In this document: one piece after another, positions 242 to 13,971 of the stretch
Numbering within the stretch: position 1 is the first letter of the stretch
Layout: each line of letters begins with the position of its first letter
Assembly (NCBI GenBank): GCA_021731215.1
Contig: JAKFXU010000199.1
Span: 1 to 13,971 of the forward strand
Origin: Rhodoferax sp.
GTDB taxonomy: Bacteria; Pseudomonadota; Gammaproteobacteria; Burkholderiales; Burkholderiaceae_C
Length of the DNA: 13,971 bases
Direction: 5' to 3'
Notes under the pieces: generated by a model
Seen by the model: the letters and a program-made list of their open reading frames with translations, nothing else
The model's database searches: none
What the model was told of the DNA's origin: nothing
Translations under genes and position numbers: made by a program

Positions 242-1150
242 TTACTTACTGTGGCAGGTCAAGCACAGCGCGCTACCGCTATTGGCCACCCGCAAGAAAG
301 CTGGCTTGAAAGTGCTGCCGGCGCCGCCTGACGGTACACCATGCGGGTCATGACAGGAGGCGCACTCGACCTTGCCATCGTACACGCGCACCTCGCCTTT
401 GCCCATGTTGGTGTCACTGTCCACGTCAAAAAAGGTGGCGCTGCCTTTGGTCCTGCCTGGCTGCTTGTAATCCGCCGTGGCGCCACTCAGGGCCGGATAA
501 GTGATCCCTACCGGATGGTCATTTCTCAAGTCGGTACCGATGGCAAAAACGGTGAAGTCGGTGGCGCCCGCGCCGACAAAACCGGCGCCTGCGGAATGAC
601 ACGCCAAACAACCTTGCCCGGGCACAGGATTCAAACCGAGATGAACGGTCGCATCCGGGCCACGCGAGTTATCCCAAGTATTGAGAAATGTATTGTTCTG
701 CGTCGTGGCCTGGGCCGGGTCATAGCGGCCAGAGCCGGGCATGTTGATAATGGAATCTACTGCCGTCTGCCCATCGTGGCAGGACAAGCAGGCCAGCGAA
801 TTGGGGCCCGGTTGCCCCACCACCTGGGTCAGGGACGAGGTGCCCAGCAGATCATAGGTGGCGTAAGTGGTGGTCTTCAAGGTCCGATTCCACAAGGGCA
901 GCGTTACATTCGAATTGGCGCCATGGGGGGTATGGCAATAAACGCAGACCTCCTGATAGTCATTGCGATAGGGATCCATAGATACACCGCTAGGGCCACC
1001 GCCGGAAGCTTGCCGTTGCGTCATGTTGTGCCGCGTATTGCCAATACTGCCTTGATTGCTGAATTTTGTCGGCAGATCGACGTCAGCCCAAGCCAAACCA
1101 GCCCAGATTCCAAGCACAGCGAATCCGATAATTATCTTCTTGATAACCAT
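242..1150 (-). CDS. Secreted pentaheme c-type cytochrome (cytochrome c3-like), downstream paralog
   Basis: A 302-residue exported electron-transfer protein. An N-terminal signal peptide (KK, then a hydrophobic stretch to about residue 22, AWA before DVDLP) directs it to the periplasm or beyond. Five CXXCH haem sites are visible: CVYCH at 69-73, CLSCH at 121-125, CLACH at 181-185, CASCH at 263-267 and CLTCH at 296-300, two residues from the C terminus. Besides the five motif histidines there are exactly five others (41, 76, 170, 212, 270), so all five haems could be bis-His ligated. A D-rich loop at about 242-255 (DVDSDTN) resembles a calcium-binding loop. The ATG at 1150 is preceded by AGGAG with 7-base spacing. 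It lies 51 bases after a close paralog and shares its operon. The family is clear; the specific function is not. An OmcE-like extracellular conductor is one possibility, unproven. Confidence 0.9.
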   Translation of the reverse strand: MVIKKIIIGFAVLGIWAGLAWADVDLPTKFSNQGSIGNTRHNMTQRQASGGGPSGVSMDPYRNDYQEVCVYCHTPHGANSNVTLPLWNRTLKTTTYATYDLLGTSSLTQVVGQPGPNSLACLSCHDGQTAVDSIINMPGSGRYDPAQATTQNNTFLNTWDNSRGPDATVHLGLNPVPGQGCLACHSAGAGFVGAGATDFTVFAIGTDLRNDHPVGITYPALSGATADYKQPGRTKGSATFFDVDSDTNMGKGEVRVYDGKVECASCHDPHGVPSGGAGSTFKPAFLRVANSGSALCLTCHSK

Positions 1151-1157
1151 GGCTCTA

Positions 1158-1162
1158 CTCCT
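1158..1162 (-). promoter_or_regulatory. Ribosome binding site AGGAG of the downstream pentaheme cytochrome
   Basis: AGGAG on the minus strand, seven bases before the ATG at 1150. It is the strongest Shine-Dalgarno in the NHL-cytochrome unit and fixes the start of the downstream copy. The upstream paralog has a weaker site and a probable GTG start, so the downstream copy may be translated more efficiently (inference). Confidence 0.7.
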
Positions 1163-1201
1163 AGATTTTATTCAGCACAAATTGTCGATCACTTACCCAA
1201 G

Positions 1202-2110
1202 CTACTTGTCATGGCAGGTCAGGCACAGCGCGCTATTGGTATTGACCGCACGCAAAAAAGTGGGCTTAAAGACACTTCCGGGCCCTTCTGACTCAACCCC
1301 GTGCGGGTCGTGACAGGACCCGCACTCAACCTGAACTGTCCCGTCCGAAGCATACAAACGAATGTCCACTTTATCGATAGTGCCATTCCCGTTAACATCA
1401 AAAAAGGGAGTGACACCGGGCAGAGCCAATGGCTTCTTGAAATCCGTCCCCCAACCATTGATGATCGGATAAACGACGCCCACCGGATGGTCGTTTCTCA
1501 GATCGGTGCCTATGACCGCAGCGGTGAAGTCGGCCGCCCCGGCACCAAGCACACCAGCACCAGACGAATGGCAGACCAGACAACCCACCACATTCAGGCC
1601 GAGGTGAACTGTGGCATCCATACCACTGGCATGGTTCCAGGTATCGAGAAAGGCGTTGTCCTGAACCGTTGCCTGGGACAACTGATAGCGATCGACGCCG
1701 GGCATGTAGATCACCGAATCGACAGCCGTCTGTCCATCGTGGCAGGACAAGCACGCCAATGAATTAGCCCCCGGTTGTGAGACCGTCTGCGTCAACGATG
1801 AAGTGCCCAATCGGTCGTAGGTGAAATAAGACGTCGGCTTCATGGTTCGATTCCATTCAGGTTGCATGCCCGGCGTACTGGTGCTGGCCGGCGTGTGGCA
1901 ATAGACGCAGACATCCTGGTAGTCATTGCGATAGCGATCCATCAGAATCCCGTGAGGACCGCCTGACTCTTGACGCTGAGTCATGTTGTGCCGGGTGTTG
2001 GCAATACTGTCTCGATTGGAAAATTGGGTCGGCAAATCTCCCGCAGCCCTGACCATGCCAGCGCCGATTAGCAATAACGCGACCATCGAAATTATCTTTG
2101 TTCGCCTCAC
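1202..2110 (-). CDS. Secreted pentaheme c-type cytochrome (cytochrome c3-like), upstream paralog
   Basis: Paralog of the cytochrome that follows it, about 60 percent identical by eye and also 302 residues if started at the GTG at 2110. The open frame extends to a TTG at 2158. The GTG gives a normal signal peptide (MRRTK, hydrophobic core, VRA before AGDLP), the same 24-residue distance to the shared DLPT motif as in the paralog, and AAGAG eight bases upstream. Haem sites are CVYCH 68-72, CLSCH 120-124, CLVCH 177-181, CGSCH 263-267 and CLTCH 296-300. The TPH histidine just after haem 1 in the paralog is TPA here. Extra histidines occur at 53 and 160, and 11 His are present in all. A loop at about 238-249 (DVNGNGTIDKVD) matches the DxNxNGxIDxxD pattern of EF-hand or dockerin calcium sites. 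It lies 89 bases after the NHL lipoprotein gene, in the same operon. Confidence 0.88.
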   Translation of the reverse strand: MRRTKIISMVALLLIGAGMVRAAGDLPTQFSNRDSIANTRHNMTQRQESGGPHGILMDRYRNDYQDVCVYCHTPASTSTPGMQPEWNRTMKPTSYFTYDRLGTSSLTQTVSQPGANSLACLSCHDGQTAVDSVIYMPGVDRYQLSQATVQDNAFLDTWNHASGMDATVHLGLNVVGCLVCHSSGAGVLGAGAADFTAAVIGTDLRNDHPVGVVYPIINGWGTDFKKPLALPGVTPFFDVNGNGTIDKVDIRLYASDGTVQVECGSCHDPHGVESEGPGSVFKPTFLRAVNTNSALCLTCHDK

Positions 2111-2199
2111 CTGTCCGACTCTTTCGAAACATTGCCCGGCAAGCTCAACCGTCACCAAGAGTTCCTCAATTCAAGAAAACGGCTACTCCGAACTAGTAG

Positions 2200-3300
2200 T
2201 CACTGCGACAACATTTGCCGCCCTTCCTTCTCGCTCAGCCGCCGAAAAACCTCGACTTTGTTGAATAACTGATCAACGGCGTAGATGCGCCCAGTCTCAT
2301 CGACCGCAATGCCACTCAGCATTCCAAATTTTCCGGGATTGTTGACGCCTCCACCTTGACCTACCGCAAGCAACAGTTGACCCGCTTGATTGAATACCTG
2401 AAAGTTGTTAAAGCTGGCATCGGTCACGTAGACGTTTCCGTCATCATCAACCGCAATGCCGCGTGGGCGGGCGAAATTGCCAGGATTGACGCCGAGCTGC
2501 CCGAAAGTGCGCAGAAAGTTGCCATCGCGGTCAAAGGCCTGCACCCTGAAATTGCCTGAATCGAGCACATACAAGGTGCCATCGGGTCCGGTTGCTGCCT
2601 GCAATGGAACGTTAAATTGACCCTCGCCACTGCCCCGTGTGCCGATGATCTTGAGTTTTGTTCCATCCTTGGCGTAAATGACCACCCGGTGGTTGTTGCT
2701 TTCGTTGTAAGAACGATCAACGGCATAAATCCGCTCGCCATCGCGACTGACCGCCACCCCGGTGGGTCGATCCAGATCAGCCGGACCGCCGATGGCACGC
2801 AGGAACAGGCCGAGGCTGTCAAACACCAACACCTGACGCCGCTTGGAATCCGCCACATATACATTGGATTGGTGATCCAACGCCAGCCCGGCCGGTTTTC
2901 CCAAGGCATTGGGTGCGCGCTGGCCGAACCGGAACAGTCTGCGCCGCGGCACATCAAACACAATAATCGATTCAGTCCGCAGATCGGCCACATAAATTCG
3001 CCCCTGGCGCGCAACGATGGCAGCCGCTTTTTCAAAAACTGGACGTTCCGACAAGGCGGACGCACCCGACAGCGCACGCATCAATTTGTCTTTGTCGAGC
3101 TCGGGCGGCGCAATATCGGCTGCTGAACGCAGCACTGTTTCATAGGCAAGGCGCGGCTGATCGGGCAACTGCGGCCAGACCAAGGGACTCTTGTCAGCCG
3201 TGCTGGATGGCTCAGGCGGCGCAGCGCAGGCCACCAGCAACACCGCGCACGCCAGACTGAGCAAACGCGAGGTCTGCAAGTTACGAAAGGGAAACTTCAT
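2200..3300 (-). CDS. Six-bladed NHL-repeat beta-propeller lipoprotein
   Basis: A 366-residue protein with a lipoprotein signal: a basic, then hydrophobic N terminus ending in LVAC, with Cys25 as the probable lipidated residue. It is followed by a Pro/Ser-rich linker (26-50). Residues from about 92 to 353 form about six NHL-type blades of the pattern GxAVDxxGxIYVxDxxxxxVxVF; the blade cores are near 100-116, 136-161, 179-210, 231-258, 278-305 and 328-352. Propellers of this kind bind protein or small ligands or serve as scaffolds; no catalytic residues are recognised. It begins the operon that continues into the two pentaheme cytochromes, so a role in docking, stabilising or assembling those cytochromes at the outer membrane is a reasonable inference. 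The ATG at 3300 has no good Shine-Dalgarno close to it. It could also be a binding protein unrelated to electron transfer. Confidence 0.88.
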   Translation of the reverse strand: MKFPFRNLQTSRLLSLACAVLLVACAAPPEPSSTADKSPLVWPQLPDQPRLAYETVLRSAADIAPPELDKDKLMRALSGASALSERPVFEKAAAIVARQGRIYVADLRTESIIVFDVPRRRLFRFGQRAPNALGKPAGLALDHQSNVYVADSKRRQVLVFDSLGLFLRAIGGPADLDRPTGVAVSRDGERIYAVDRSYNESNNHRVVIYAKDGTKLKIIGTRGSGEGQFNVPLQAATGPDGTLYVLDSGNFRVQAFDRDGNFLRTFGQLGVNPGNFARPRGIAVDDDGNVYVTDASFNNFQVFNQAGQLLLAVGQGGGVNNPGKFGMLSGIAVDETGRIYAVDQLFNKVEVFRRLSEKEGRQMLSQ

Positions 3301-3644: not shown

Positions 3645-4925
3645 TTATGGCCGCTGGACATTGATCCTGATCTTCAGGTCTTTGGTGCCGGTGCGCACCG
3701 GCGCGGTCAAACCCTCGAAGTCCCCGGCGCTCGGGCTGGCGTTACCCGACTTCGAGATGCGCGCACCCACCACCACCATCGGAACACTCGACAGCTTGAC
3801 ATCGGGCGCCATGCTCATGCTGTCGTCGAGAACAAAGCGAGTGGGCAGATCTTTCACCTGTTTGCGCAGCACTGCCAACGGGATAGGCGAGCCCTGCGCG
3901 GCGCGGGCGAAGATGAAGACGGTGTCGGTATCGGCCACTTTGGCACGCAGCGCGGGGTCGAGTTCGACGCTACCGGCGACCTCGGCGCCGGCCACCGCCA
4001 CTGCCGCCGCCGGCGGTGGCGCCGGTGGCCTTAACGCAGCGCCAGCCCCTGCAGTTTGGGCCGGAGGCCGAGCTCCGGCCTGGCTTTGCGCCTCGCTGAT
4101 ACTGCTTGCGGTCGAGCGCGCGATGTCCGATTCAGGTGGCACCAGCAGCAATATTTTTTGCCACTGCGTCACCGCGCCTTGATAGTCACGCCGTTCGAAG
4201 GCGGCACTGCCGGACAAGGCCAGTGCCTTGATATTTTTCGGGTCGGCCGCCAGGGCCTGGACAATCAGTTGCTCTGGCGCGCCCTGCAGGCTCCGGTTCG
4301 AAGCCATGGCCAGGGTGTCGGCGTAGTCAGCCAGCAGCGTTGCGTTGGCGGGCACCAGTTTGACCAGTTGACCATAGGCCTGTGCAGCTTCGCCGAAGCG
4401 GCCCAGCGCATTGTAGGAACGCGCCAGCATGTTCCACCCTTCGGCATTGCCGGGTTCCTTCTGGAGGCGCTGCGCAAGCGCCGCAACCATCTCCTGAATT
4501 TGCGCCTCGGTCACCGCGTGCGCCTGGTTCTGCGGTGGTACGGCGGCCGCCTGTTTCGGATCGAGTCCGGCGGGTGAGCCCAGCAAGCCATACAGGGCAA
4601 GAGCGAGCATCGGCACGCTTATGCCAACCGCGATCGCAGCCCAGCGCTTGTCGGCGACGGCATCGGTGGCGGGCGCGCCCGGCTGCACGTCTTCGACCAC
4701 GCGCCGCTCCAGTTCCTGCTTTGCTTTCTCATAGGCTGGCACATTGATGATGCCATTGGCCAGATCGGCATCGAGCTCGCGCAACTGGTCGCGCAGCACC
4801 GTCAGATTGACCTCATCGCGCAGCGCATGGGGGTTCACAACCGCCGTCTTGCGCAGCAGCGGGGGCAAAACAAACAGCAGGGCAGCGGCCAGCAACAAAG
4901 CCGCGGCAATTAAAAATACGGTCAT
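3645..4925 (-). CDS. ccmI: Cytochrome c maturation protein CcmI (TPR apocytochrome chaperone)
   Basis: A 426-residue membrane protein that in System I binds apocytochrome c and presents it to the CcmF-CcmH haem ligation complex. TM1 (about 3-24) and TM2 (about 95-116) flank a cytoplasmic loop with the CcmI-type LRDQLRELD and LERRVVEDV segments. A periplasmic TPR region covers about 145-265. A long Ala/Pro-rich linker (about 283-318) joins it to a C-terminal CycH-like domain (about 319-426, with SVELDP and VFIFARA). The ATG overlaps the ccmH stop as ATGA, so the two are translationally coupled; in some bacteria CcmH and CcmI are fused. It is the last gene of the ccm series here. Confidence 0.93.
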   Translation of the reverse strand: MTVFLIAAALLLAAALLFVLPPLLRKTAVVNPHALRDEVNLTVLRDQLRELDADLANGIINVPAYEKAKQELERRVVEDVQPGAPATDAVADKRWAAIAVGISVPMLALALYGLLGSPAGLDPKQAAAVPPQNQAHAVTEAQIQEMVAALAQRLQKEPGNAEGWNMLARSYNALGRFGEAAQAYGQLVKLVPANATLLADYADTLAMASNRSLQGAPEQLIVQALAADPKNIKALALSGSAAFERRDYQGAVTQWQKILLLVPPESDIARSTASSISEAQSQAGARPPAQTAGAGAALRPPAPPPAAAVAVAGAEVAGSVELDPALRAKVADTDTVFIFARAAQGSPIPLAVLRKQVKDLPTRFVLDDSMSMAPDVKLSSVPMVVVGARISKSGNASPSAGDFEGLTAPVRTGTKDLKIRINVQRP

Positions 4926-5392
4926 TTTTTTTCTTTCACGTCGGGGGTCGCGCGCAGCAGCTCCGAGGCGCGCTGCATTTCGGCTTGCGGCAAGTCGTCA
5001 ACCGGAGAACGGCCCCGGCGCAACTTCAGACCGAGCAAAACAATGCCACCGATCAGCAGCACAAATGGTCCGAACCAGAGCAGCCAGGTGGTCGCCTTGA
5101 GCGGGGGGCGGAACAGAATGAAATCACCGTAGCGCTGCACCATGTAGTCCAGGATGTCTTTGTCCGACATGCCTTGTCCGAGCATTTCGCGCACCTGATT
5201 TTTCAGGTCGACCGCCAGCGGGGCGGTCGAGGCGGCAATCGTCTCGTTCTGACACACCAGGCAGCGCAGTTCTTCGGAAATCGCCATCACATGCTGTTCC
5301 AGCGCCGGGTTGGCGGCCACCGGCTTGGCTTCATTGGCAAGAGCTGACACCATCAACAGCGCCAGCCAACAGCCGAAAAATAATTTACGCAC
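4922..5392 (-). CDS. ccmH: Cytochrome c maturation thiol oxidoreductase CcmH (CcmL type)
   Basis: A 156-residue thioredox-type protein that helps reduce the CXXCH cysteines of apocytochrome c, working with CcmG and CcmF. It has a cleavable signal peptide (1-19, SALA before NEA), a three-helix periplasmic domain with the family motif LRCLVCQN (Cys44 and Cys47), the LDYMVQRYGDFIL segment, and one C-terminal TM (about 103-122) followed by a charged cytoplasmic tail. It lacks the TPR half found in long E. coli CcmH; that part is the separate CcmI downstream. The start is a GTG at 5392, overlapping the ccmG stop by eight bases. Confidence 0.95.
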   Translation of the reverse strand: MRKLFFGCWLALLMVSALANEAKPVAANPALEQHVMAISEELRCLVCQNETIAASTAPLAVDLKNQVREMLGQGMSDKDILDYMVQRYGDFILFRPPLKATTWLLWFGPFVLLIGGIVLLGLKLRRGRSPVDDLPQAEMQRASELLRATPDVKEKK

Positions 5393-5912
5393 GGTTGAGC
5401 TCTTTAATCAAGGGTAGGATTTTGCTGTTGATGTCTTCGGTGCTGACCGGGCCAATATGCTTCATCCGGATCACGCCCAGCTTGTCAATGACAAAGGTTT
5501 CGGGCACGCCATAGACGCCGTAGTCAATGCCAACGCGGCCGTTTGCATCGAAGGCAGACACGGCGTAGGGGTTGCCGAACTGGCGCAACCAGCCGATCCC
5601 CGCTTCCCGCCCGTCCTTGTAGTTGAGCCCCAGAATCGGCACCACGCCCTGGCGCGCCAAGTCCATCAGCACCGGATGCTCGACCCGGCACGACACGCAC
5701 CACGAGGCCCAGACATTGAGCAACCAGACTTGTCCGACCATGTCCTGCGGCGAGATGGTTTTGCCGGGCTCGTGCAGTTGGGTCAATTGGAACGCAGGCG
5801 CCGGTTTGCCAATGAAGGGCGATGGAACTTCGCGTGGGTTCAAGCGCAGCCCGATACCGAGAAACACGATCAGTGCAATGAACAGGCCGAGCGGCAAAAG
5901 AAATCGTTTCAT
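5385..5912 (-). CDS. ccmG: Thiol:disulfide interchange protein CcmG (DsbE)
   Basis: A 175-residue membrane-anchored periplasmic thioredoxin that keeps apocytochrome cysteines reduced before haem attachment. An N-terminal TM (about 4-22) is followed by a thioredoxin fold with NVWASWCVSC (active-site Cys72 and Cys75) and the cis-proline segment GVYGVPETFVID typical of CcmG. Its length is normal for the family. Nine bases separate it from the ccmF stop, and it overlaps ccmH. The active-site dipeptide is VS rather than the more familiar EP or PT; this is probably a lineage variant. Confidence 0.95.
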   Translation of the reverse strand: MKRFLLPLGLFIALIVFLGIGLRLNPREVPSPFIGKPAPAFQLTQLHEPGKTISPQDMVGQVWLLNVWASWCVSCRVEHPVLMDLARQGVVPILGLNYKDGREAGIGWLRQFGNPYAVSAFDANGRVGIDYGVYGVPETFVIDKLGVIRMKHIGPVSTEDINSKILPLIKELNRA

Positions 5913-5921
5913 GCGTCGGCC

Positions 5922-7916
5922 TTAAACTGCAACTTTGCTTGGCTCAACGCCAACTGCTGGCGCTGTCGCCGCTTGCCGCTTGCGCGAAGCCACGCGATAG
6001 CGACGATCCGATGCCGCCAAAATACCGCCCAAAGCCATGATCAGGCAACCAAACCAGATCCAACTGACAAAGGGCTTGTGCTGCACGCGCACGACCCAGG
6101 CGTCCTGACTGGCAGCCTCACCCATCGATATATAGAGGTCGCGTGTGAAACCCCGATTGATGGCAGCTTCGGTCATCGGCATGTTTTGCACCGTGTAGAG
6201 CCGTTTTTGCGCCGCCATGGTGGCAATTTTTTTATCGCCGTAGGTGACGTCGAAAGTCCCTTGCTCGGCAATGTAGTTGGGGCCCTTGATTTCCCTCAGA
6301 TCGGTCATGCGGAAGGTATAACCACCGGCGTTGGTGGTGTCGCCCACGCGCATGACGACCTCGTTGCTGGTCTCCAGGCCATTGACCAGCGTCACGCCGA
6401 TCACGAACACGCCAATACCGGCATGCCCCACCAGCATGCCCCAGTAGCTGCGCGTCTGGCTGCTCATGCGCTGCCACAGCGAGGTGCCGACCGGCGCGTT
6501 GCGCAAGCGCTGCAGCAGGTGGGACGCCGTGGCCAGCAAGATCCAGACGGCGAACGCGAGCCCCAGCATAACCATCGGAGACAGCGTAAACAGCAAGGCG
6601 GCCGCCAGCGTGAACAGCAAGGTGCCCAATCCGATCCAGCGCACGCGGGACAACACCTCATTGAAGGCCGCATCCTTCCAGCGCACAAACGGCGCCACCG
6701 CCATCAGCAGCAAAACCGGGATCATCAAGGGCACGAATACCGTATCGAAATAGGGCGGGCCAACCGAAATTTTGCCAAGCCCAAGTGCATCGAGAAACAG
6801 CGGATACAGCGTACCCAGCAAGATCGCGCCGGTTGCCGCCAGCAACAGCACATTGTTGAGCAGCAGCATGGATTCACGCGAAAACAGGCTGAATTTGCCG
6901 CCCACGCCGATTTTGGGTGCGCGCCAGGCATACAGCGTCAGCGAGCCGCCGATCACAACCGCCAGGAACACCAACAGGTAAAGGCCGCGCCGCGGATCGG
7001 TGGCGAAGGCATGGACCGAGGTCAGCACGCCCGAACGCACCAGAAAGGCGCCCAGCAGCGACAGCGAGAAAGTAACAATGGCGAGCAGCACGGTCCAGTT
7101 CTTGAAGCTGCCGCGTTTTTCGGTGACGGCCAGCGAATGGATCAGCGCGGTGCCAACCAGCCACGGCATGAAGGATGCATTTTCAACCGCATCCCAAAAC
7201 CACCAGCCCCCCCAGCCGAGTTCATAGTAGGCCCAGAAGCTGCCCAGGAAAATGCCGAGTGTCAGAAACACCCACGCGACCAACGTCCAGGGCCGCGACC
7301 AGCGTGCCCACGTGGCATCGAGTTGGCCACCCATGAGGGCCGCGATGGCAAAAGAAAAGGCCACCGAGAAGCCGACGTAACCCATGTACAGCAGCGGCGG
7401 GTGAATGATCATGCCGAAATCCTGTAGCAAGGGATTGAGGTCGCGCCCATCCACGGCACCCGGCAACAGCCGGTCAAGCGGATTGGAGGTGAACAACATG
7501 AAGCTCAGGAAGCCGATGCTGATCAATCCCATCACGCCCAGCACGCGGGCGACGGTTTCGTCCGGCAACTGGTGACTAAAGCGGGCAACCGCGAACGTCC
7601 ACAGCATCAGCATCCAGGTCCACAGCAGCAAGGAGCCTTCGTGGCTGCCCCAGGAGGCGGCAAAGCGGTAATAGACCGGCAGCGTCGAATTCGAATTGCT
7701 GGCAACGTTGGTCACCGAAAAATCGTTGATGATAAACGAATAGATCAGGGCTAAAAGCGCGATGGACGTGAACACGAACTGCCCGCTGGCCACCGGTCGC
7801 GCCAGCGCCATCCAGCGCTGATTGCCGCGAAAGGATCCGATAATTGGAAGGGTACCTAGCACCAGCCCCAGGCACAGCGCCAGAATCAACGAGAAATTAC
7901 CGAGTTCAGGAATCAT
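5922..7916 (-). CDS. ccmF: Haem lyase subunit CcmF
   Basis: A 664-residue polytopic inner-membrane protein that takes haem from CcmE and joins it to apocytochrome c. The WWD haem-handling motif WGGWWFWD is at 235-242. Conserved histidines are visible at 172 (IHPPLLYMG), 260 (ALIHS), 302 (SVHAFA) and 498 (VGHAG), matching the periplasmic and transmembrane haem ligands of the family. A periplasmic domain at about 515-610 precedes the last TM (about 617-636) and a short basic tail. The length is normal. The ATG overlaps the ccmE stop as ATGA. The family identity is secure. Confidence 0.97.
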
Positions 7917-8407
7917 TTGGCGTCCTTGGTTTGATTGCCGCCGCTGACGGCGGCGGCTGCTGCGGCATCGCTGGCCTGCTTGGCCTGTTTGCCTTTTTCC
8001 AGTGCATAGGCGGCTTCCGGCGGCATGTAGTTTTCATCATGCTTGGCTAGCACTTCTTCAGCCATGAACAACTTGTCGTCGCCCAGCTTGCCCTGTGTCA
8101 CCACGCCTTTTCCTTCCTTGAACAAGTCGGGCAGAATGCCGCGGTACTGGGCATGGATGCGCTGCGCATTGTCGGTCACGGTGAAGTTCACGGTCATGCC
8201 GTCGGCCTGGCGTTTTATGCTGCCCATCTCGACCATGCCGCCCATCCGAAAGCTGCGGCCCTGCGGCGCTTCGCCAGCCAATATCTGGGTCGGCGTGAAG
8301 AAGAACACCATGTTCTGCTGGAACGCCGACAGCACCAGCCAGGTGGCCAGGCCGAGCGTGGCCAGTCCGCTGGTGATCAGAATCAGGCGTTTATGCCTTG
8401 GTTTCAT
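7913..8407 (-). CDS. ccmE: Periplasmic haem chaperone CcmE
   Basis: A 164-residue haem chaperone that binds haem covalently through a histidine, receives it from CcmABCD and passes it to CcmF. An N-terminal TM anchor (about 8-28) precedes the OB-fold domain with FRMGGMVE and VTQGKL-type segments. The haem-binding site LAKHDENY carries His123 and Tyr127. The C-terminal tail (about 140-164) is Ala/Lys-rich and disordered-looking, which is usual. GGGAG lies six bases before the ATG, and the start overlaps the ccmD stop as ATGA. Confidence 0.96.
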
Positions 8408-8595
8408 GGTTTGCTCCCGGTGCGCGGCGCTTTGGAAGCACGCGCGTTGACAAGTTGTGCGCGGATCGACTTGCCGCGTTGCTTCAGTAACAGCACTTCA
8501 CCCGCCATGCAGCCGAACACGACGACAAACGAACCCCACACGTAAAGCGCGTAACCGCCCATCGCAAAAAAATTGCTCCAGCTTCCCCAAGTCAT
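8404..8595 (-). CDS. ccmD: Haem exporter subunit CcmD
   Basis: A 63-residue single-TM protein of the CcmABCD complex, needed for release of holo-CcmE. It has the typical short form: [20 protein letters not shown], then TM (about 15-36), then a basic cytoplasmic tail ([10 protein letters not shown]). The frame is open upstream into ccmC, but the ATG at 8595 is chosen because it overlaps the ccmC stop as ATGA and gives the family's usual N terminus. Position between ccmC and ccmE confirms the assignment. Confidence 0.92.
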
Positions 8596-9374
8596 TTGGC
8601 AGTCTCCATGGTTTGCTTGACCCAATCGGTGTGCCGTTCACGCTCGAGCACGATGCAGCGCACGCGCAGCAGCGTCACGGCAATGGTGTAGGCCCAAAAC
8701 GCCAGCGCCATGATCAGCATGCCCAGCAGCATGGTCATGGCCATGGTCGGCGCGCTCGTGAAATTGATCGACGAGCCCTGGTGCAGCGTGTTCCACCATT
8801 GCACCGAAAAATAAATGATCGGCACATTGACGACCCCGACCAGGGCCAGTACGGCGCCGGCCTTGTCGGCGCGCCGGGGTTCGTCAATGGCGGCCTGCAG
8901 CGCCATGAAGCCGACGTACAGGAACAGCAGGATCAAGGTGGACGTCAGGCGCGCGTCCCACACCCACCAGGTGCCCCAGGTCGGCTTGCCCCACAAGGCG
9001 CCGGTCCACAGCGAAAGGAAGGCGAACATGGCGCCGGTGGGCGCCAGCGCGCTGGCCATCATGGACGACATGCGGGTGTTGAAGGCCAGGCCGATGGCGG
9101 CCCAGAATGCCATCACCAGATAGATGAACATCGCCATCCAGGCCGCCGGAACATGCACGAAAATGATGCGGTACGACTCGCCCTGCTGGTGATCGGTCGG
9201 TGCGACAAAAAAGCCGATGTAGAGACCAATGACGCCAAGGATCACGGCAATGGCGGCAAACCAGGGAATCAATTTTCCTGAAATCGAGTAGAAATTCTGC
9301 GGCGCGGCGAATTTAAACCAGTGAATACGGCTTGATTCGCGGGTATCTGACAGGGCGTTATTGAAGATGGACAC
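8592..9374 (-). CDS. ccmC: Haem exporter/handling protein CcmC
   Basis: A polytopic membrane protein that presents haem to CcmE. The WWD motif WGTWWVWD is at 133-140, and haem-ligand histidines are His74 (VHVP) and His198 (LHQG), numbered from the GTG start. Six TM segments are visible. There is no good ATG: the frame extends to a TTG at 9422. I prefer the GTG at 9374 (260 residues) because GGAAG lies about 11 bases upstream and the extra residues (MRQAAARTLF) are not typical; the true start is uncertain. It follows a 120-base gap after ccmB, the largest in the operon, so a secondary promoter is possible, though none was recognised. Confidence 0.93.
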   Translation of the reverse strand: MSIFNNALSDTRESSRIHWFKFAAPQNFYSISGKLIPWFAAIAVILGVIGLYIGFFVAPTDHQQGESYRIIFVHVPAAWMAMFIYLVMAFWAAIGLAFNTRMSSMMASALAPTGAMFAFLSLWTGALWGKPTWGTWWVWDARLTSTLILLFLYVGFMALQAAIDEPRRADKAGAVLALVGVVNVPIIYFSVQWWNTLHQGSSINFTSAPTMAMTMLLGMLIMALAFWAYTIAVTLLRVRCIVLERERHTDWVKQTMETAK

Positions 9375-9494
9375 CTGTGAAAATGCTTCCAAAAATAGGG
9401 TTCGGGCGGCTGCTTGGCGCAATATAGTCGTTCATCAACCCAGGCGCGAAGGATGGCGGATATTGCCCCTTAACGAAACAAGTATTTTACCACG

Positions 9495-10163
9495 TCACTC
9501 CAGGGAAATACGCAGCGCAGCGGCGGTCGCCCAGGGCGCCAGCGCCACCGCGCCGGCCAGCACGCCGCCCAGCAACAGCAGGTGCGCGCTGCTGCCCAGG
9601 CCACTGGCCTGGGCCCCCACCGCGCCGGCACCGAAAATCAAGACCGGAATGTAGAGCGGCAGCACCAACAGCGATACCAGCACGCCGCCGCCGCGCACGC
9701 CCAGCGTCAAGGCCGCGCCAATCGAGCCGACCAGGCTCAACACCGGCGTGCCGATCAGCAGGCTGAAGAACAGCACCGCCACCGAGTCGCGCGGTAGGTC
9801 GAACTGCACCGCCAGCAGGGGCGCCAGCAACACCAGCGGCAGGCCGGAAACCAGCCAATGGGCGATCAGCTTGCCGATCACGATCACCGTCAGCGGCTCG
9901 GCCGACAGCAGCATTTGCTCCAGCGTGCCATCGGCATGATCGAGCGCAAACAAGCGCCCGAGCGCCAGCATCGAGGCCAGCAAGGCGGCCACCCACAAAA
10001 TACCCGGCGCCATGGTGCGCAGCAGCGCCGCCTCCGGCCCGACACCGAGCGGAAACAGGGTCGCCACGATGACAAAAAAGAACAGGGTGGTGAGCACGTC
10101 CGAGCGGCGCCGAAACGCCAGCAGCAGGTCGCGCCGGATGACACAGTTGAGCGCCTTCAGCAT
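9495..10163 (-). CDS. ccmB: Haem exporter ABC permease CcmB
   Basis: A 222-residue permease with about six TM helices, partner of the CcmA ATPase in the CcmABCD complex that releases holo-CcmE. Recognisable family features are the N-terminal RRDLLLAFRRR segment, the FALDHADGTLEQM loop (about 72-84) and the alternating hydrophobic helices. The frame continues far upstream through ccmA, but the ATG at 10163 gives the family's normal length and overlaps the ccmA stop by seven bases. Confidence 0.95.
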   Translation of the reverse strand: MLKALNCVIRRDLLLAFRRRSDVLTTLFFFVIVATLFPLGVGPEAALLRTMAPGILWVAALLASMLALGRLFALDHADGTLEQMLLSAEPLTVIVIGKLIAHWLVSGLPLVLLAPLLAVQFDLPRDSVAVLFFSLLIGTPVLSLVGSIGAALTLGVRGGGVLVSLLVLPLYIPVLIFGAGAVGAQASGLGSSAHLLLLGGVLAGAVALAPWATAAALRISLE

Positions 10164-10792
10164 GCCGGCTCCCGGCTCAGGTCCAGGCACAGCGAGTGTT
10201 GCGCGTTGAGCTCGATTTCCTGGTGCGTGGTGTAAATCACCATGCCGCCCTGCGCCAGGTGCTGGTTCAAGGTGCCGCACAGTTCCAGCACCGCGCGCTG
10301 ATCGAGTGCGGTGAACGGCTCGTCCAGAATCCACAACGGCTTGTGCATGCCCAGGCGCAGCCGCGCCAGCGCCACCCGTTTGCGTTGACCTTGCGACAAG
10401 GCGCGCGTCGGCAGATCGGCGGCGCGCGCCAGACCCAGCGCCTCCAGCGCGTCGCAAGCCTGGTCGCGGCTGACCGCATGACCCGCCAGAGTGGCCGCAA
10501 TGACGACGTTTTCCCACGCCAGCAGATCATCCTTCACGCCGTTGGCATGGCCGAGATAGATCAGTTGGCTGGCGAACTCCTCGCGCACGGCGCGGATGTT
10601 GCGCGCCTGCCAGCGCACTTCGCCCGCGGCCGGAAACGCCAGGCCGCACAGCATGCGCAGCAGACTGGTTTTGCCACTGCCATTGGTGCCCGCGACCCGC
10701 ATGGCGTCGCCCGCTGTAATATCGAAATTGATGTCATTGAACAGCTCTCGCTCGCCGCGTGTGCAAGCAAGCTGATACGCCTGCAAAGTCAT
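10157..10792 (-). CDS. ccmA: Haem exporter ABC ATPase CcmA
   Basis: A 211-residue ATP-binding subunit whose ATP hydrolysis drives release of haem-loaded CcmE from CcmC. Walker A GTNGSGKTS is at 35-43, the ABC signature LSQGQ at 132-136, Walker B LWILDEP at 153-159 and the H-loop His at 190. The length is normal for CcmA. The ATG at 10792 overlaps the stop of the CcoG-like gene as ATGA, which couples haem maturation to that upstream block. Confidence 0.96.
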   Translation of the reverse strand: MTLQAYQLACTRGERELFNDINFDITAGDAMRVAGTNGSGKTSLLRMLCGLAFPAAGEVRWQARNIRAVREEFASQLIYLGHANGVKDDLLAWENVVIAATLAGHAVSRDQACDALEALGLARAADLPTRALSQGQRKRVALARLRLGMHKPLWILDEPFTALDQRAVLELCGTLNQHLAQGGMVIYTTHQEIELNAQHSLCLDLSREPAC

Positions 10793-11784
10793 TTACCGCC
10801 TCCGTTGGCGCTGGATGGTACAGCAAGCGCCCTATGCTGACGCTCAATCGCACGCTGGCTGGCGTAGCGAATCAAGCCACCGGGTGCGCCAATCTTGTCC
10901 ATCACCAGATTGCAGGCATCGATGCAGGCGGCGCAACCCACACAGTCATGGTCAAAGCCCTGGCGGATGTCGTTGCCGCCGGGGCAGACCTGAATGCACA
11001 GGGTGCAGTCAACACAGTCCATTGATTGCGGGTGGTGCGCCCGGCTTTTGGCGTTGCGCAGGCCGCGCGGCTCGCCGCGCCAGCGGTCGTAGGTCACCAC
11101 CAGCGTGTCGCGGCAAGTCAAAACACGCTGCAAGCGCGAAGACGGGCACAGATGGCGGCAGACCCGCTCGCGCAGCCAGCCCGCATTGGCGTAAGCCAGC
11201 GCGCCATAGGCGAGCAGCCCAAACCATTGCCACGGACCCAGCGCCAGGGTCAGAAAGTCATGCAGCACCGTCTTGATCGGCGTGAAATAACCGACAAACG
11301 TCAGCCCGGTCCAAGCCGACAACAGCACCCAGGCGCCGTGTTTGAGCGCTTTTTTTCTGAACTTTGGTGCAGACCAAGGCGCTTGATCGAGCCGCATGCG
11401 GGCGCTGCGTCCGCCCTCGATGCGGCGCTCGATCCACATGAAAATTTCAGTGTAAACCGTGTGCGGACAGGCAAAGCCGCACCAGACCCGGCTCACCACA
11501 ACCGTCGCCAAGCCGCCCACCAAGACCGCCATGATCAACCACGCGGCCAGGTAGATGGAATCCTGGGGCCCCAGCAGCAGGCCGAAGACGTGGAATTTTG
11601 ACGCCGCCAAATCGAACAGCAGCAGCGGGTAGCCGTTCCAGTTCAGCCAGGGCAGGCCAAAGAAGACCAGTTGCGTCAGCCAGACACTGGCCCAACGCCA
11701 GTTGCTGTACCAACCGGTCGTTTCGCGCACGTAGATTTTTTCACGGGCTGCGAGCAGCTTCATGAGCGGCCCCGGCTCAGTCAT
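10789..11784 (-). CDS. CcoG/RdxA/FixG-type membrane 4Fe-4S protein, short form
   Basis: A 331-residue inner-membrane iron-sulfur protein. It follows the CcoG layout: KIYVRE near the N terminus, TM helices at about 33-48, 78-98, 150-168 and 184-200, WCGFACP (Cys102, Cys106), VCRHLCP (Cys209, Cys213), then two ferredoxin sites (Cys257, 260, 263, 267 and Cys281, 284, 287, 291) and GLIRY. Full CcoG proteins are about 470 residues and continue with a periplasmic Ig-like domain; here the protein ends about 25 residues after GLIRY. CcoG is known as a cupric reductase for cbb3 oxidase assembly, but no ccoNOPQ genes lie nearby. It may instead move electrons to or from the cytochromes or the maturation system. 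The ATG at 11784 overlaps the previous gene; the ATG at 11763 is an alternative. Confidence 0.88.
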   Translation of the reverse strand: MTEPGPLMKLLAAREKIYVRETTGWYSNWRWASVWLTQLVFFGLPWLNWNGYPLLLFDLAASKFHVFGLLLGPQDSIYLAAWLIMAVLVGGLATVVVSRVWCGFACPHTVYTEIFMWIERRIEGGRSARMRLDQAPWSAPKFRKKALKHGAWVLLSAWTGLTFVGYFTPIKTVLHDFLTLALGPWQWFGLLAYGALAYANAGWLRERVCRHLCPSSRLQRVLTCRDTLVVTYDRWRGEPRGLRNAKSRAHHPQSMDCVDCTLCIQVCPGGNDIRQGFDHDCVGCAACIDACNLVMDKIGAPGGLIRYASQRAIERQHRALAVPSSANGGGK

Positions 11785-12316
11785 CTTGCAAAGCCGCGAG
11801 TGCCTGCGCGAGCGCGTCCCGCTCCGGTTGCCGCGCAGGCAGATGGGCCGGCAACTGCCGGATGCGAGCGCGCACCTGGACTAAATGCGCGGACTCGGCC
11901 GCGCGCCAGGCCAGCGCTTGATCCAGCACCGCGTGCTGGAAAGAGACCGGGCCCTGCGCGGAGAAATCGAGCTGATTGGAGGCGCGCATCAGGCCTGCGA
12001 GCTGACGCACAATGCCGTCGACGTAATAGGCCCAGATCCGGTCGGCAACAATCAAGGCCAGCAAATTCACCAGCAAAATGCCGCCCAGTACGCGCAGGCC
12101 TTCGCGCATCATCAGCGACAACATGTTGGCGTCGCCCGAAAAATGGATCCGATACATGTTCTCGTCCACGATCTCACCCAAGGCTTGGTACAAAGCCCAG
12201 ATCGCCAGCGCGGCCACCCCGATTTCCATGATGACCAGCGCCCCCAGCAAGTATTTCTGGAGCACGTGATCGACCAGGTGGATGCGGCGGCGGTTGGGTT
12301 GCGGCGTGCGAGTCAT
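11777..12316 (-). CDS. Small two-TM membrane protein, HAMP-like layout, unknown function
   Basis: I do not recognise a named family. The 179-residue product has a basic N terminus, TM1 (about 22-46), a short periplasmic stretch with YRIHFSGD, TM2 (about 73-93) and a cytoplasmic Arg/Ala-rich helical tail (about 94-179) that could form a coiled coil. The layout is like a sensor or chemoreceptor stub with a linker and no output domain. The frame extends upstream to 12409, but the ATG at 12316 overlaps the heptaheme cytochrome stop as ATGA and removes an unlikely Cys/Pro-rich extension. It is shaped like the other two-TM protein in this operon, so the pair may act together around the heptaheme cytochrome (inference). 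Confidence 0.75.
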   Translation of the reverse strand: MTRTPQPNRRRIHLVDHVLQKYLLGALVIMEIGVAALAIWALYQALGEIVDENMYRIHFSGDANMLSLMMREGLRVLGGILLVNLLALIVADRIWAYYVDGIVRQLAGLMRASNQLDFSAQGPVSFQHAVLDQALAWRAAESAHLVQVRARIRQLPAHLPARQPERDALAQALAALQDD

Positions 12317-13119
12317 AGGTCGTGGCATTCGTAACAGAGGGCAGATCGGGCATTGGCGACCACCAGCTTGCCATGCTCCTTCTGGTAGCCGGAGTGGCAG
12401 GAGACACAACTAACCTTGCCCTCCGGCAGCAGGAGCCGGCGCTCCACGGTGCGCAACGGGCGATAGCCGCCGAATGAAGTGGCTTTCTGGTAACTCATGC
12501 CAATCGGATGATTGCCCTTTTGACCGGCGTGCCGGACCACGCCGCCCTGATCGACGCTGGTCGCCAGCCTGGGCGTCGCGTTGGCGCCGTGGCAATCCAT
12601 GCACATGTTGGAGTAAGCGTCAAGGGTCGGCGCGTTGCTGTCAATGCCCTTGTTGACCAGGTGCCCGGCCAGCAGCGATGCACCGCCATCGCGCATCTTC
12701 TTGAAAAAGTCAGCCTCATGGCACGCAAAACAAAGTTCCTTGCCGGTCTTGGCACCGCGCAGGAGACCGCGGCTGCGGCCATGGACATCGTGACAGGTGC
12801 TGCAGGTCAGATCGTTCTTCCAGTCCAGCGGATAGATCGGCGGCGGGGTGGTTTTGGGTCGAAAACCACTGGGGTGACTCAGTTGGATAGCAGTCGGATG
12901 ACACCTTGCGCACAGCGTCTCCTGACTCGCCGTCAGCAAGCCGGCCTGCTGCGCCGTGACGTTCTTGCCCCCCAGGTGGCAGACGATACAGTCCACCTCG
13001 CTCATATGCGCAGGCGTACCGGGGCTGAACATGGCATACAGCGCACTCACTGCCACCAAGCCGGCCAGCAGCCCGAACCGGGCCAGCCATTTAAAGCTGG
13101 ACTTTTTCATCGAGCCCAT
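12313..13119 (-). CDS. Membrane-anchored heptaheme c-type cytochrome
   Basis: A 268-residue multihaem electron carrier. A basic N terminus and hydrophobic stretch (about 11-30) act as a signal anchor or signal peptide. Seven CXXCH sites follow: 44-48 (CIVCH), 70-74 (CARCH), 106-110 (CSTCH), 130-134 (CFACH), 173-177 (CMDCH), 238-242 (CVSCH) and 262-266 (CYECH). Exactly seven further histidines (38, 82, 113, 153, 197, 204, 249) are present, enough for bis-His ligation of every haem. It belongs to the broad doubled-CXXCH or cytochrome c3-like group, probably on the periplasmic face of the inner membrane. The first ATG (13119) overlaps the previous gene by 29 bases; an ATG at 13110 is equally possible, and neither has a strong Shine-Dalgarno. 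The stop is ATGA-coupled to the next gene. Confidence 0.88.
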   Translation of the reverse strand: MGSMKKSSFKWLARFGLLAGLVAVSALYAMFSPGTPAHMSEVDCIVCHLGGKNVTAQQAGLLTASQETLCARCHPTAIQLSHPSGFRPKTTPPPIYPLDWKNDLTCSTCHDVHGRSRGLLRGAKTGKELCFACHEADFFKKMRDGGASLLAGHLVNKGIDSNAPTLDAYSNMCMDCHGANATPRLATSVDQGGVVRHAGQKGNHPIGMSYQKATSFGGYRPLRTVERRLLLPEGKVSCVSCHSGYQKEHGKLVVANARSALCYECHDL

Positions 13120-13618
13120 TCAGGCGCGCGATCGCATCGGCGTAGTCTGCGCCATGGCCTGCCGCCAGCGCGCACGCTGCCTCCGCGGCGGCCATTTTGA
13201 GGGCCGCACGATGCTGGCGCAAAGTGGCGACGGCCTGCTTGATGTGGACGGCCTGCGTCGCCAGCGCGTCGCCTTGGCGCAGATCGATCAGCGCGCTGGT
13301 GTCACTCGCCCCTGCCAGTTTCAGGTTTTGCGAAAACCGATAGAGTGGACCAGCCACGCGAAAACTGCTGTACAGCACAATCAGCCAGGTAATGACTCCG
13401 GTAATGGCGACCAGCAGCAAACCGGCCACCAGCATGGCAACGCCCAACTCCTGACGCGTCAGGCTGTGCGAGCGAATGACTTCGCCGTAGGTTTCTCCGC
13501 CGTCACCCGTGATCAGGGTCAGCACCGCCAGCAGCACCAGCACCGCCACGGCCCCCACCGCCAGACTGATTTTGGCCACCAGCTTCAGATGAAAGAAAAC
13601 CATCGGTTCATGGACCAA
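13091..13618 (-). CDS. Two-TM membrane protein with HAMP-like linker, no output domain
   Basis: A 175-residue membrane protein: TM1 (about 16-37), a roughly 20-residue periplasmic loop (GDGGETYGEVIRSH), TM2 (about 58-83), then a cytoplasmic HAMP-like linker with RVAGPLYRF (87-95) and LRQGDAL (113-119) and a helical Ala-rich tail. The RxAGPLYR motif and LRxGD pattern are those of HAMP-type linkers in sensors and chemoreceptors, but no kinase, cyclase or methyl-accepting domain follows. The start is uncertain: TTG codons at 13624 and 13618 are in frame; the latter is six bases from AAGGAG and is preferred. It lies 27 bases after the Reg_prop gene and overlaps the heptaheme cytochrome gene. A sensing or scaffolding role for the cytochrome is inference. 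Confidence 0.78.
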   Translation of the reverse strand: MVHEPMVFFHLKLVAKISLAVGAVAVLVLLAVLTLITGDGGETYGEVIRSHSLTRQELGVAMLVAGLLLVAITGVITWLIVLYSSFRVAGPLYRFSQNLKLAGASDTSALIDLRQGDALATQAVHIKQAVATLRQHRAALKMAAAEAACALAAGHGADYADAIARLNGLDEKVQL

Positions 13619-13624
13619 GATCAA

Positions 13625-13645: not shown

Positions 13646-13971
13646 TTATTTGCTCGCCTTTAAATGCGCAACACCGCCAAAACTGCCGATCCATTGATCG
13701 CCGCCGGCACCGGTCACCATCGAAAACACATGGTTCGAAAATAGACCGTGTTCGGTCGTCGTGACCACAAACTTGTCGCCGTCGCGACGCGCCAGGCCAT
13801 TGTTGGTGCCGATCCACATCACGCCATCGGCATCCTGATGCAGCATGAACACATGATTGCCGGGCAAGCCGTCGGCCACCGTGTAGTTGCGCCTTGAACT
13901 GCCTGGCAACCGGCCACTGCAGCGCGGCTCCCTGCGATTTGGGCGCCTGTTTCAGACCAACGTAGTAGGAG
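13646..13971 (-). CDS. C-terminal part of a Reg_prop beta-propeller protein, cut by the window edge, apparent frameshift
   Basis: The readable C terminus has two propeller repeats of the two-component-regulator propeller (Reg_prop) type: ADGLPGNHVF...DGVMWIGTNNGLARRDG and HGLFSNHVFSM...DQWIGSFGGVAHL, ending at 13646. In this frame a stop lies upstream (TGA near 13954), and the first usable start is a TTG at 13909 with no Shine-Dalgarno. The neighbouring frame is open to the window edge and reads YYVGLKQAPKSQG...QWPVARQFK with good high-GC third positions. Removing one base near 13889-13893 joins it smoothly to RNYTVADGLPGNH. It is therefore probably one longer gene with a one-base frameshift, either a sequencing error or a real lesion. 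Propellers of this type usually sense ligands in the periplasm. It leads the block of membrane and cytochrome genes. Confidence 0.65.

Follow-up and report, generated by a model that had tools for sequence, protein, structure and literature searches.

The window analysed here is a stretch of 13,971 nucleotides from Rhodoferax sp. that makes up the whole of one contig (JAKFXU010000199.1); the assembly (GCA_021731215.1) totals 3.18 Mb in 507 contigs and is 84.7% complete. Three open reading frames were verified on its minus strand: cytA (242..1150, 302 residues) and cytB (1202..2110), each encoding a secreted pentahaem cytochrome of the OmcE family, and a gene for an NHL lipoprotein predicted to fold as a six-bladed propeller (2200..3300). 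The cytB frame is listed with a TTG start at 2158 (1202–2158, 318 residues); judged by eye, a GTG near 2110 is more likely to be the start. The original prediction for this locus was of three genes in one unit, encoding a lipid-anchored six-bladed propeller and two paralogous secreted pentahaem cytochromes whose last haem motif lies at the extreme C-terminus. The three frames, their common strand and the short gaps between them stand; the single transcription unit is plausible from this layout and from the 344 bp gap between the propeller gene and its upstream neighbour, ccmI. One weak promoter-like site, with no evidence of function, lies upstream of the propeller gene. We report that cytA and cytB combine the four-haem core of OmcE with one inserted haem motif, and that the three genes may encode a new kind of bacterial wire.

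Relationship of the cytochromes to OmcE

Both cytochromes contain five CxxCH motifs, far above the shuffled proteins (20,000 each; mean about 0.01, maximum one), and both end in CLTCH followed by two residues and the stop codon, so that these two predicted features are borne out. CytA matches the OmcE filament subunit (PDB entry 7TFS; PMC12954529) with a phmmer E value of 2.1e-17 and PDB entry 9YUQ with 3.8e-21; the corresponding values for cytB are 5e-13 and 3.2e-16. Entry 9YUQ (‘Putative multiheme cytochrome c’, 16 chains), the best single-sequence match to cytA, differs from it in having four haem motifs and 218 residues. For comparison within the family, we aligned cytA and cytB with all 35 intact open reading frames scoring above 200 bits in 34 other loci, which were gathered with patterns from cytA alone and are therefore close relatives. 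The profile of these 37 sequences matches 7TFS and 9YUQ with E values of 2.4e-25 and 6.8e-24, respectively, and OmcS only at 0.058. Homology of cytA and cytB to OmcE, with the addition of a fifth haem motif, is near certain from these comparisons. The likeness to OmcE drawn in the original prediction thus turns out to be one of sequence, although these are not ordinary OmcE proteins since they carry the fifth haem.

The histidines point in the same direction. CytA has five histidines outside its CxxCH motifs (H41, H76, H170, H212 and H270), as many as the motifs themselves provide. All 35 intact relatives have five CxxCH motifs, and in the alignment H41, H170, H212 and H270 are present in 37/37 sequences and H76 in 34/37. 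OmcE and 9YUQ possess equivalents of H41, H76, H212 and H270, the N-terminal histidine being found in 9YUQ as well, and they lack H170 and the third CxxCH. All four of the distal histidines common to OmcE and 9YUQ are therefore kept in cytA, and three of them in cytB, which has an alanine at the position of H76. In OmcE one of the haems is reported to be ligated by a histidine from the adjacent subunit (PMC9473688); if this subunit-crossing residue is among the four shared positions, cytA has it too. The likeness to the OmcE of Geobacter sulfurreducens thus covers the four-haem core, its four distal histidines and the C-terminal position of the last haem, whereas the number of haems per subunit differs (four in OmcE, five in cytA and cytB).

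The inserted haem

The fifth CxxCH, preceded by a histidine of its own (H170), sits between core haems 2 and 3 in all 37 aligned sequences. In cytA the segment from H170 to this added motif (CLACH, residues 181–185) is encoded at 596..643 on the minus strand, and both elements are missing from OmcE and 9YUQ. As read from the alignment, members of the family consist of the four-haem core of OmcE plus one inserted haem which has, by position, its own ligand. As a broader sample, 21 more distant pentahaem sequences scoring at least 280 bits were taken from genomes of the class. H41, H76, H212 and H270 are present in 21/21 of these and H170 in 19/21. Only 17/21 have five strict CxxCH motifs: three carry CxxxCH at the inserted haem (two in L096 and one in L101), and L098 is cut by the end of its region. 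A rule of five strict CxxCH motifs was therefore dropped. The CxxxCH sequences, two of which lack H170, belong to one family (L096, 4768–7099; L101, 2583–3476), and the inserted haem is on these grounds the variable one of the five, which might fit a side haem.

The position of this haem matters for the geometry of a possible wire. OmcE, OmcS and two archaeal wires are described as (TS)n, a strict alternation of T-stacked and slip-stacked haem pairs, while OmcZ, the only one of the five known wires that does not alternate, is (TSSTSTS)n, with a doubled pair and a branch haem (PMC11936953). Strict alternation is impossible in a single periodic line whose repeat has an odd number of haems. We therefore predict that the inserted haem either is a branch or side haem or doubles one of the pairs.

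Alternatively, the inserted haem may have ended polymerisation, in which case cytA and cytB would be soluble pentahaem carriers, monomers that reside in the periplasm, at the outer membrane or beyond it and feed a conduit of the MtoAB type. Such a conduit is present in the genome (see below), and with five histidines for five haems every haem of cytA could be ligated within one chain. This count is not decisive, as OmcE also has five non-motif histidines for its four haems. There is a pentahaem cytochrome c552 that is soluble. The c552 of Thermochromatium tepidum and the pentahaem PHC/ExtKL family are described as related to AvECN, a tetrahaem wire (PMC11976967), and they thus share with cytA and cytB both the five haems and kinship to a four-haem wire; this precedent makes the soluble carrier a real rival. 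Neither c552 nor AvECN is among the eight PDB sequences found by our family profile at E values up to 1, a comparison that did not extend to ExtKL itself. On the other side, the retention in cytA of all four histidines common to OmcE and 9YUQ, including the N-terminal one, argues against a soluble carrier, which we consider somewhat unlikely.

The cytB type

The two cytochromes are indeed paralogous (65% identity), but the term is an incomplete description. In our tree a supported clade (97/93) holds cytB together with genes of other genomes and excludes cytA, whose own position is not resolved. Within this clade cytB groups with the second copies found in loci L036 and L038 (95/71, the second value being under the tool’s mark of 80), each of which adjoins a complete copy. 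The position of H76 is occupied by alanine in cytB and by asparagine in these two proteins. The L036 and L038 copies have four non-motif histidines for five haems, counted from a point some eight residues ahead of the N-terminal histidine onward; cytB has two further histidines elsewhere. A search for a replacement ligand gave no histidine column (by column count) and no methionine (by eye, in nine rows) that is common to the three cytB-type proteins yet missing elsewhere. The cytB-type subunit, as judged from these alignments, is one in which one haem lacks a conserved distal histidine.

This loss could also mean that cytB is a decaying duplicate, with no function of its own, from which the distal histidine has disappeared by drift. 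Its branch is longer than that of cytA (0.47 versus 0.24), and the replacing residue is not the same in all three proteins. However, the second copies of two other genomes lack the very same histidine and group with cytB, and they have open frames and keep their other haem ligands in place. We regard decay as unlikely.

The propeller lipoprotein and its association with the cytochromes

The third gene encodes a protein with NHL repeats (PF01436, 104.6 bits) and a lipobox-like LLVAC, identified by eye. Its AlphaFold2 model is confident (mean pLDDT 90.2, pTM 0.87), and its strands form, by eye, six blades, the last of which is closed by the N-terminal strand; the lipid-anchored six-bladed propeller of the original prediction is thus upheld, as a predicted structure. 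Among solved structures the NHL region of Drosophila Thin (PDB entry 6XG7; TM-score 0.70 on the query) comes nearest in fold, and the closest matches in general come from NHL domains of regulators in animals and from designed propellers, which point to binding rather than to an enzyme. All three NHL matches in the genome, at its 84.7% completeness, fall in this gene.

An NHL match is present in 33/34 of the close-relative loci, and in 29/34, counted by hand, the NHL gene shares the strand of the cytochrome gene and is no more than about 400 bp from it. In the five exceptions it is nearby on the other strand (L034 and L041), about 3.5 to 3.8 kb away (L052 and L067) or missing (L056). Magnetococcales genomes (L058, L060, L061 and L062) carry this pentahaem gene too, immediately preceded by an NHL gene in the same orientation. 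In the class sample 12 of the 20 regions could be evaluated, seven being dropped for want of a usable upstream flank and L089 as a duplicate of L052. The NHL gene is adjacent in 4/12 of these and lies at 3.2 kb in a fifth. Linkage to an NHL gene as a universal rule is ruled out by this result, and the propeller is not essential to this type of cytochrome.

The arrangement nevertheless recurs beyond the window, as the original prediction had suggested in noting that a propeller beside a small multihaem cytochrome recalls OmcE-type gene sets. NHL genes are likewise part of the published Uet complex, which comprises UetA (tetrahaem), UetB (isomerase), UetC (porin), UetDEG (trihaems), UetHI (NHL) and UetJ (undecahaem) (PMC10734462). 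The window resembles this set in pairing a small cytochrome, extracellular in the Uet case, with an NHL protein, and differs from it in that no isomerase, porin, trihaem or undecahaem gene is recognised in it. No OmcE-type domain beyond cytA and cytB, and no Uet-like cluster, was found in the 84.7% complete genome. Five relatives (L082–L086) do contain Uet-like clusters, in which NHL genes adjoin an OmcE-type four-haem gene and are accompanied by a long cytochrome of 10 or 11 CxxCH motifs with an OmcE-like start; trihaem genes are present in L082, L084 and L085. The neighbours tested in L084 include a recognisable isomerase and, in the expected place of the porin, a frame of 668 residues without Pfam or NCBIfam match. 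The OmcE-like starting segment of the eleven-haem proteins (L082, 6494–11650; L084, 14989–17598) might serve a wire of the OmcE type as its base or cap.

That the propeller itself does the work of the locus, by binding some substrate, a polymer or a mineral, with the cytochromes as its electron partners and with filaments incidental or absent, is very unlikely: the pairing in 29/34 close-relative loci and the suggestion that NHL proteins of a Geoalkalibacter multihaem locus bind mineral nanocrystals (PMC12016550) speak for it, but 8/12 of the evaluable distant regions have no adjacent NHL gene and the nearest folds suggest binding and not catalysis.

An outer-membrane conduit in the same genome

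No porin gene is recognised in the window, as was originally noted. Elsewhere in the genome, however, there are a decahaem protein of the DmsE/MtrA type (TIGR03508, 280 bits versus a cut-off of 192) and an MtrB/PioB barrel (267 bits versus a cut-off of 240). Their genes are split over two other contigs, the ends of which share 107 20-mers, and belong to protein families separate from those of the window. Next to these MtoAB-type conduit genes is encoded a b561-like membrane protein, which contains eight CxxCH motifs and one CxxxCH. As for OmcA/MtrC, only two matches, to the decahaem gene and to cytA, were obtained in this incomplete genome, both of them below the cut-off.

Co-occurrence was also counted more widely. 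Among 370 genomes drawn from the class, 14 (including that of the window) have a full-length pentahaem match of at least 280 bits, a cut-off of our own. MtrB matches of at least 200 bits occur in 8/14 of them, against 23/356 of the others (Fisher test, p=2e-6, shared ancestry being ignored in both of the tests given here). With Uet-like long frames also accepted, the figures among the matches listed are 12/14 against 59/356 (p=7e-8), frames without a haem count being included. Adding three split matches gives 9/17 for MtrB and 15/17 for MtrB or a long frame; without the genome of the window the values are 7/13 and 11/13. In the close-relative pentahaem genomes PF11854 is found in 24/33, with 22 matches above 300 bits and two short or weak ones (85.6 and 28.1 bits). 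From this co-occurrence, together with the lack of an MtrC in what is available of the genome, we infer a partnership with MtoAB.

Other genes of the window

Upstream of the propeller gene, cytochrome c maturation genes from ccmI to ccmA occupy 3645..10792 on the minus strand. The products of ccmI, ccmF, ccmC and ccmA match NCBIfam models above their cut-offs; ccmH, ccmG, ccmE, ccmD and ccmB were named by position and by tblastn matches to L047, where the counterparts run in identical order, the ccmB match being partial. Maturation genes accompany the cytochrome in 7/34 of the close-relative loci in addition to the window (E values up to 1e-10, half of the query length), in three arrangements: upstream on the same strand (L047 and L067), downstream (L040, L042, L045 and L048) and upstream on the other strand (L057). 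The remaining 26 loci of the comparison, a good many of them short, yielded none.

Directly upstream of ccmA lies a gene for a CcoG-like iron–sulphur membrane protein (10789–11784; TIGR02745, 341.7 bits versus a cut-off of 316.7). A minus-strand block at 11777–13624 encodes a membrane-type protein, a cytochrome with seven CxxCH motifs counted by eye (12313–13119) and a second membrane-type protein. The same three genes are also found together in L044 and L083, where they adjoin OmcE-type genes. Near the contig end a short frame (13646–13909) contains a two-component regulator propeller repeat (PF07494).

Discussion

Our preferred explanation is that the locus encodes a module for extracellular electron transfer that is based on a filament cytochrome of the OmcE type, a scheme to which we assign, taken as a whole, a probability of about 0.5. 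CytA and cytB would be exported, matured by the Ccm system and passed across the outer membrane, where they would stack head to tail with one conserved histidine crossing to the neighbouring subunit, as is reported for OmcE. The inserted haem would lie off the main chain or double one pair, providing side access for electrons like the exposed haem of OmcZ. CytB would be a specialised end or branch subunit, or the bearer of a haem with open coordination. The propeller lipoprotein, probably located at the outer membrane, would serve as anchor or assembly platform, a plausible role. Electrons would traverse the outer membrane through the MtoAB-type porin–decahaem complex encoded elsewhere in the genome. 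The chances that these cytochromes act outside the cell and polymerise are about even.

Several points weigh against this module. Filament, surface location and electron transfer are here predictions made from the genes, and the kinship of pentahaem c552 to AvECN provides the soluble precedent discussed above. The AlphaFold2 monomer model of cytA, made with 37 sequences, is too poor to support any claim (mean pLDDT 49.4, pTM 0.29; no Foldseek match in the PDB). The NHL gene is not adjacent in most of the distant regions, 9/33 of the close-relative pentahaem genomes show no PF11854, and the conduit statistics carry the reservations given with them, namely shared ancestry and, for the Uet-like tally, the restriction to the matches listed and the inclusion of long frames without a haem count. 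Finally, the gene is patchy: among 120 near relatives a cytA match of any kind is found in 17 (the window’s own genome included), and intact full-length close copies are confined to two other genomes, G082 and G116; the copy in a third, G008, is broken.

A more elaborate form of this module may be imagined, namely an odd-haem wire with an OmcE core and a side haem (‘leaky’ like OmcZ by a separate route), capped, branched or given a catalytic end by dedicated cytB-type subunits short of one axial ligand, and held by the propeller at the outer membrane, atop MtoAB. In all its details it is a tentative and rather improbable picture.

Among the titles and abstract openings listed by our literature searches there is no five-haem relative of OmcE and no ligand-poor second type, and we do not claim that they are unpublished. 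The anchoring of wires, the points of electron entry and exit, secretion and biogenesis are named as unresolved in a review (PMC12307469), and the locus touches on the open question of how such wires acquire further haems, terminate, branch and are fixed to the outer membrane. A five-haem relative of OmcE is a natural test of whether a wire needs strict alternation of its haem pairs, and the cytB type, one distal histidine short, is a candidate end subunit. The pentahaem gene is also present, beyond the usual metal reducers, in records that are not labelled as metagenome-assembled, those of Aromatoleum evansii KB740, Aromatoleum diolicum 22Lin, Rubrivivax sp. A210 and Herbaspirillum sp. ST 5-3, so that it could be studied in culture.

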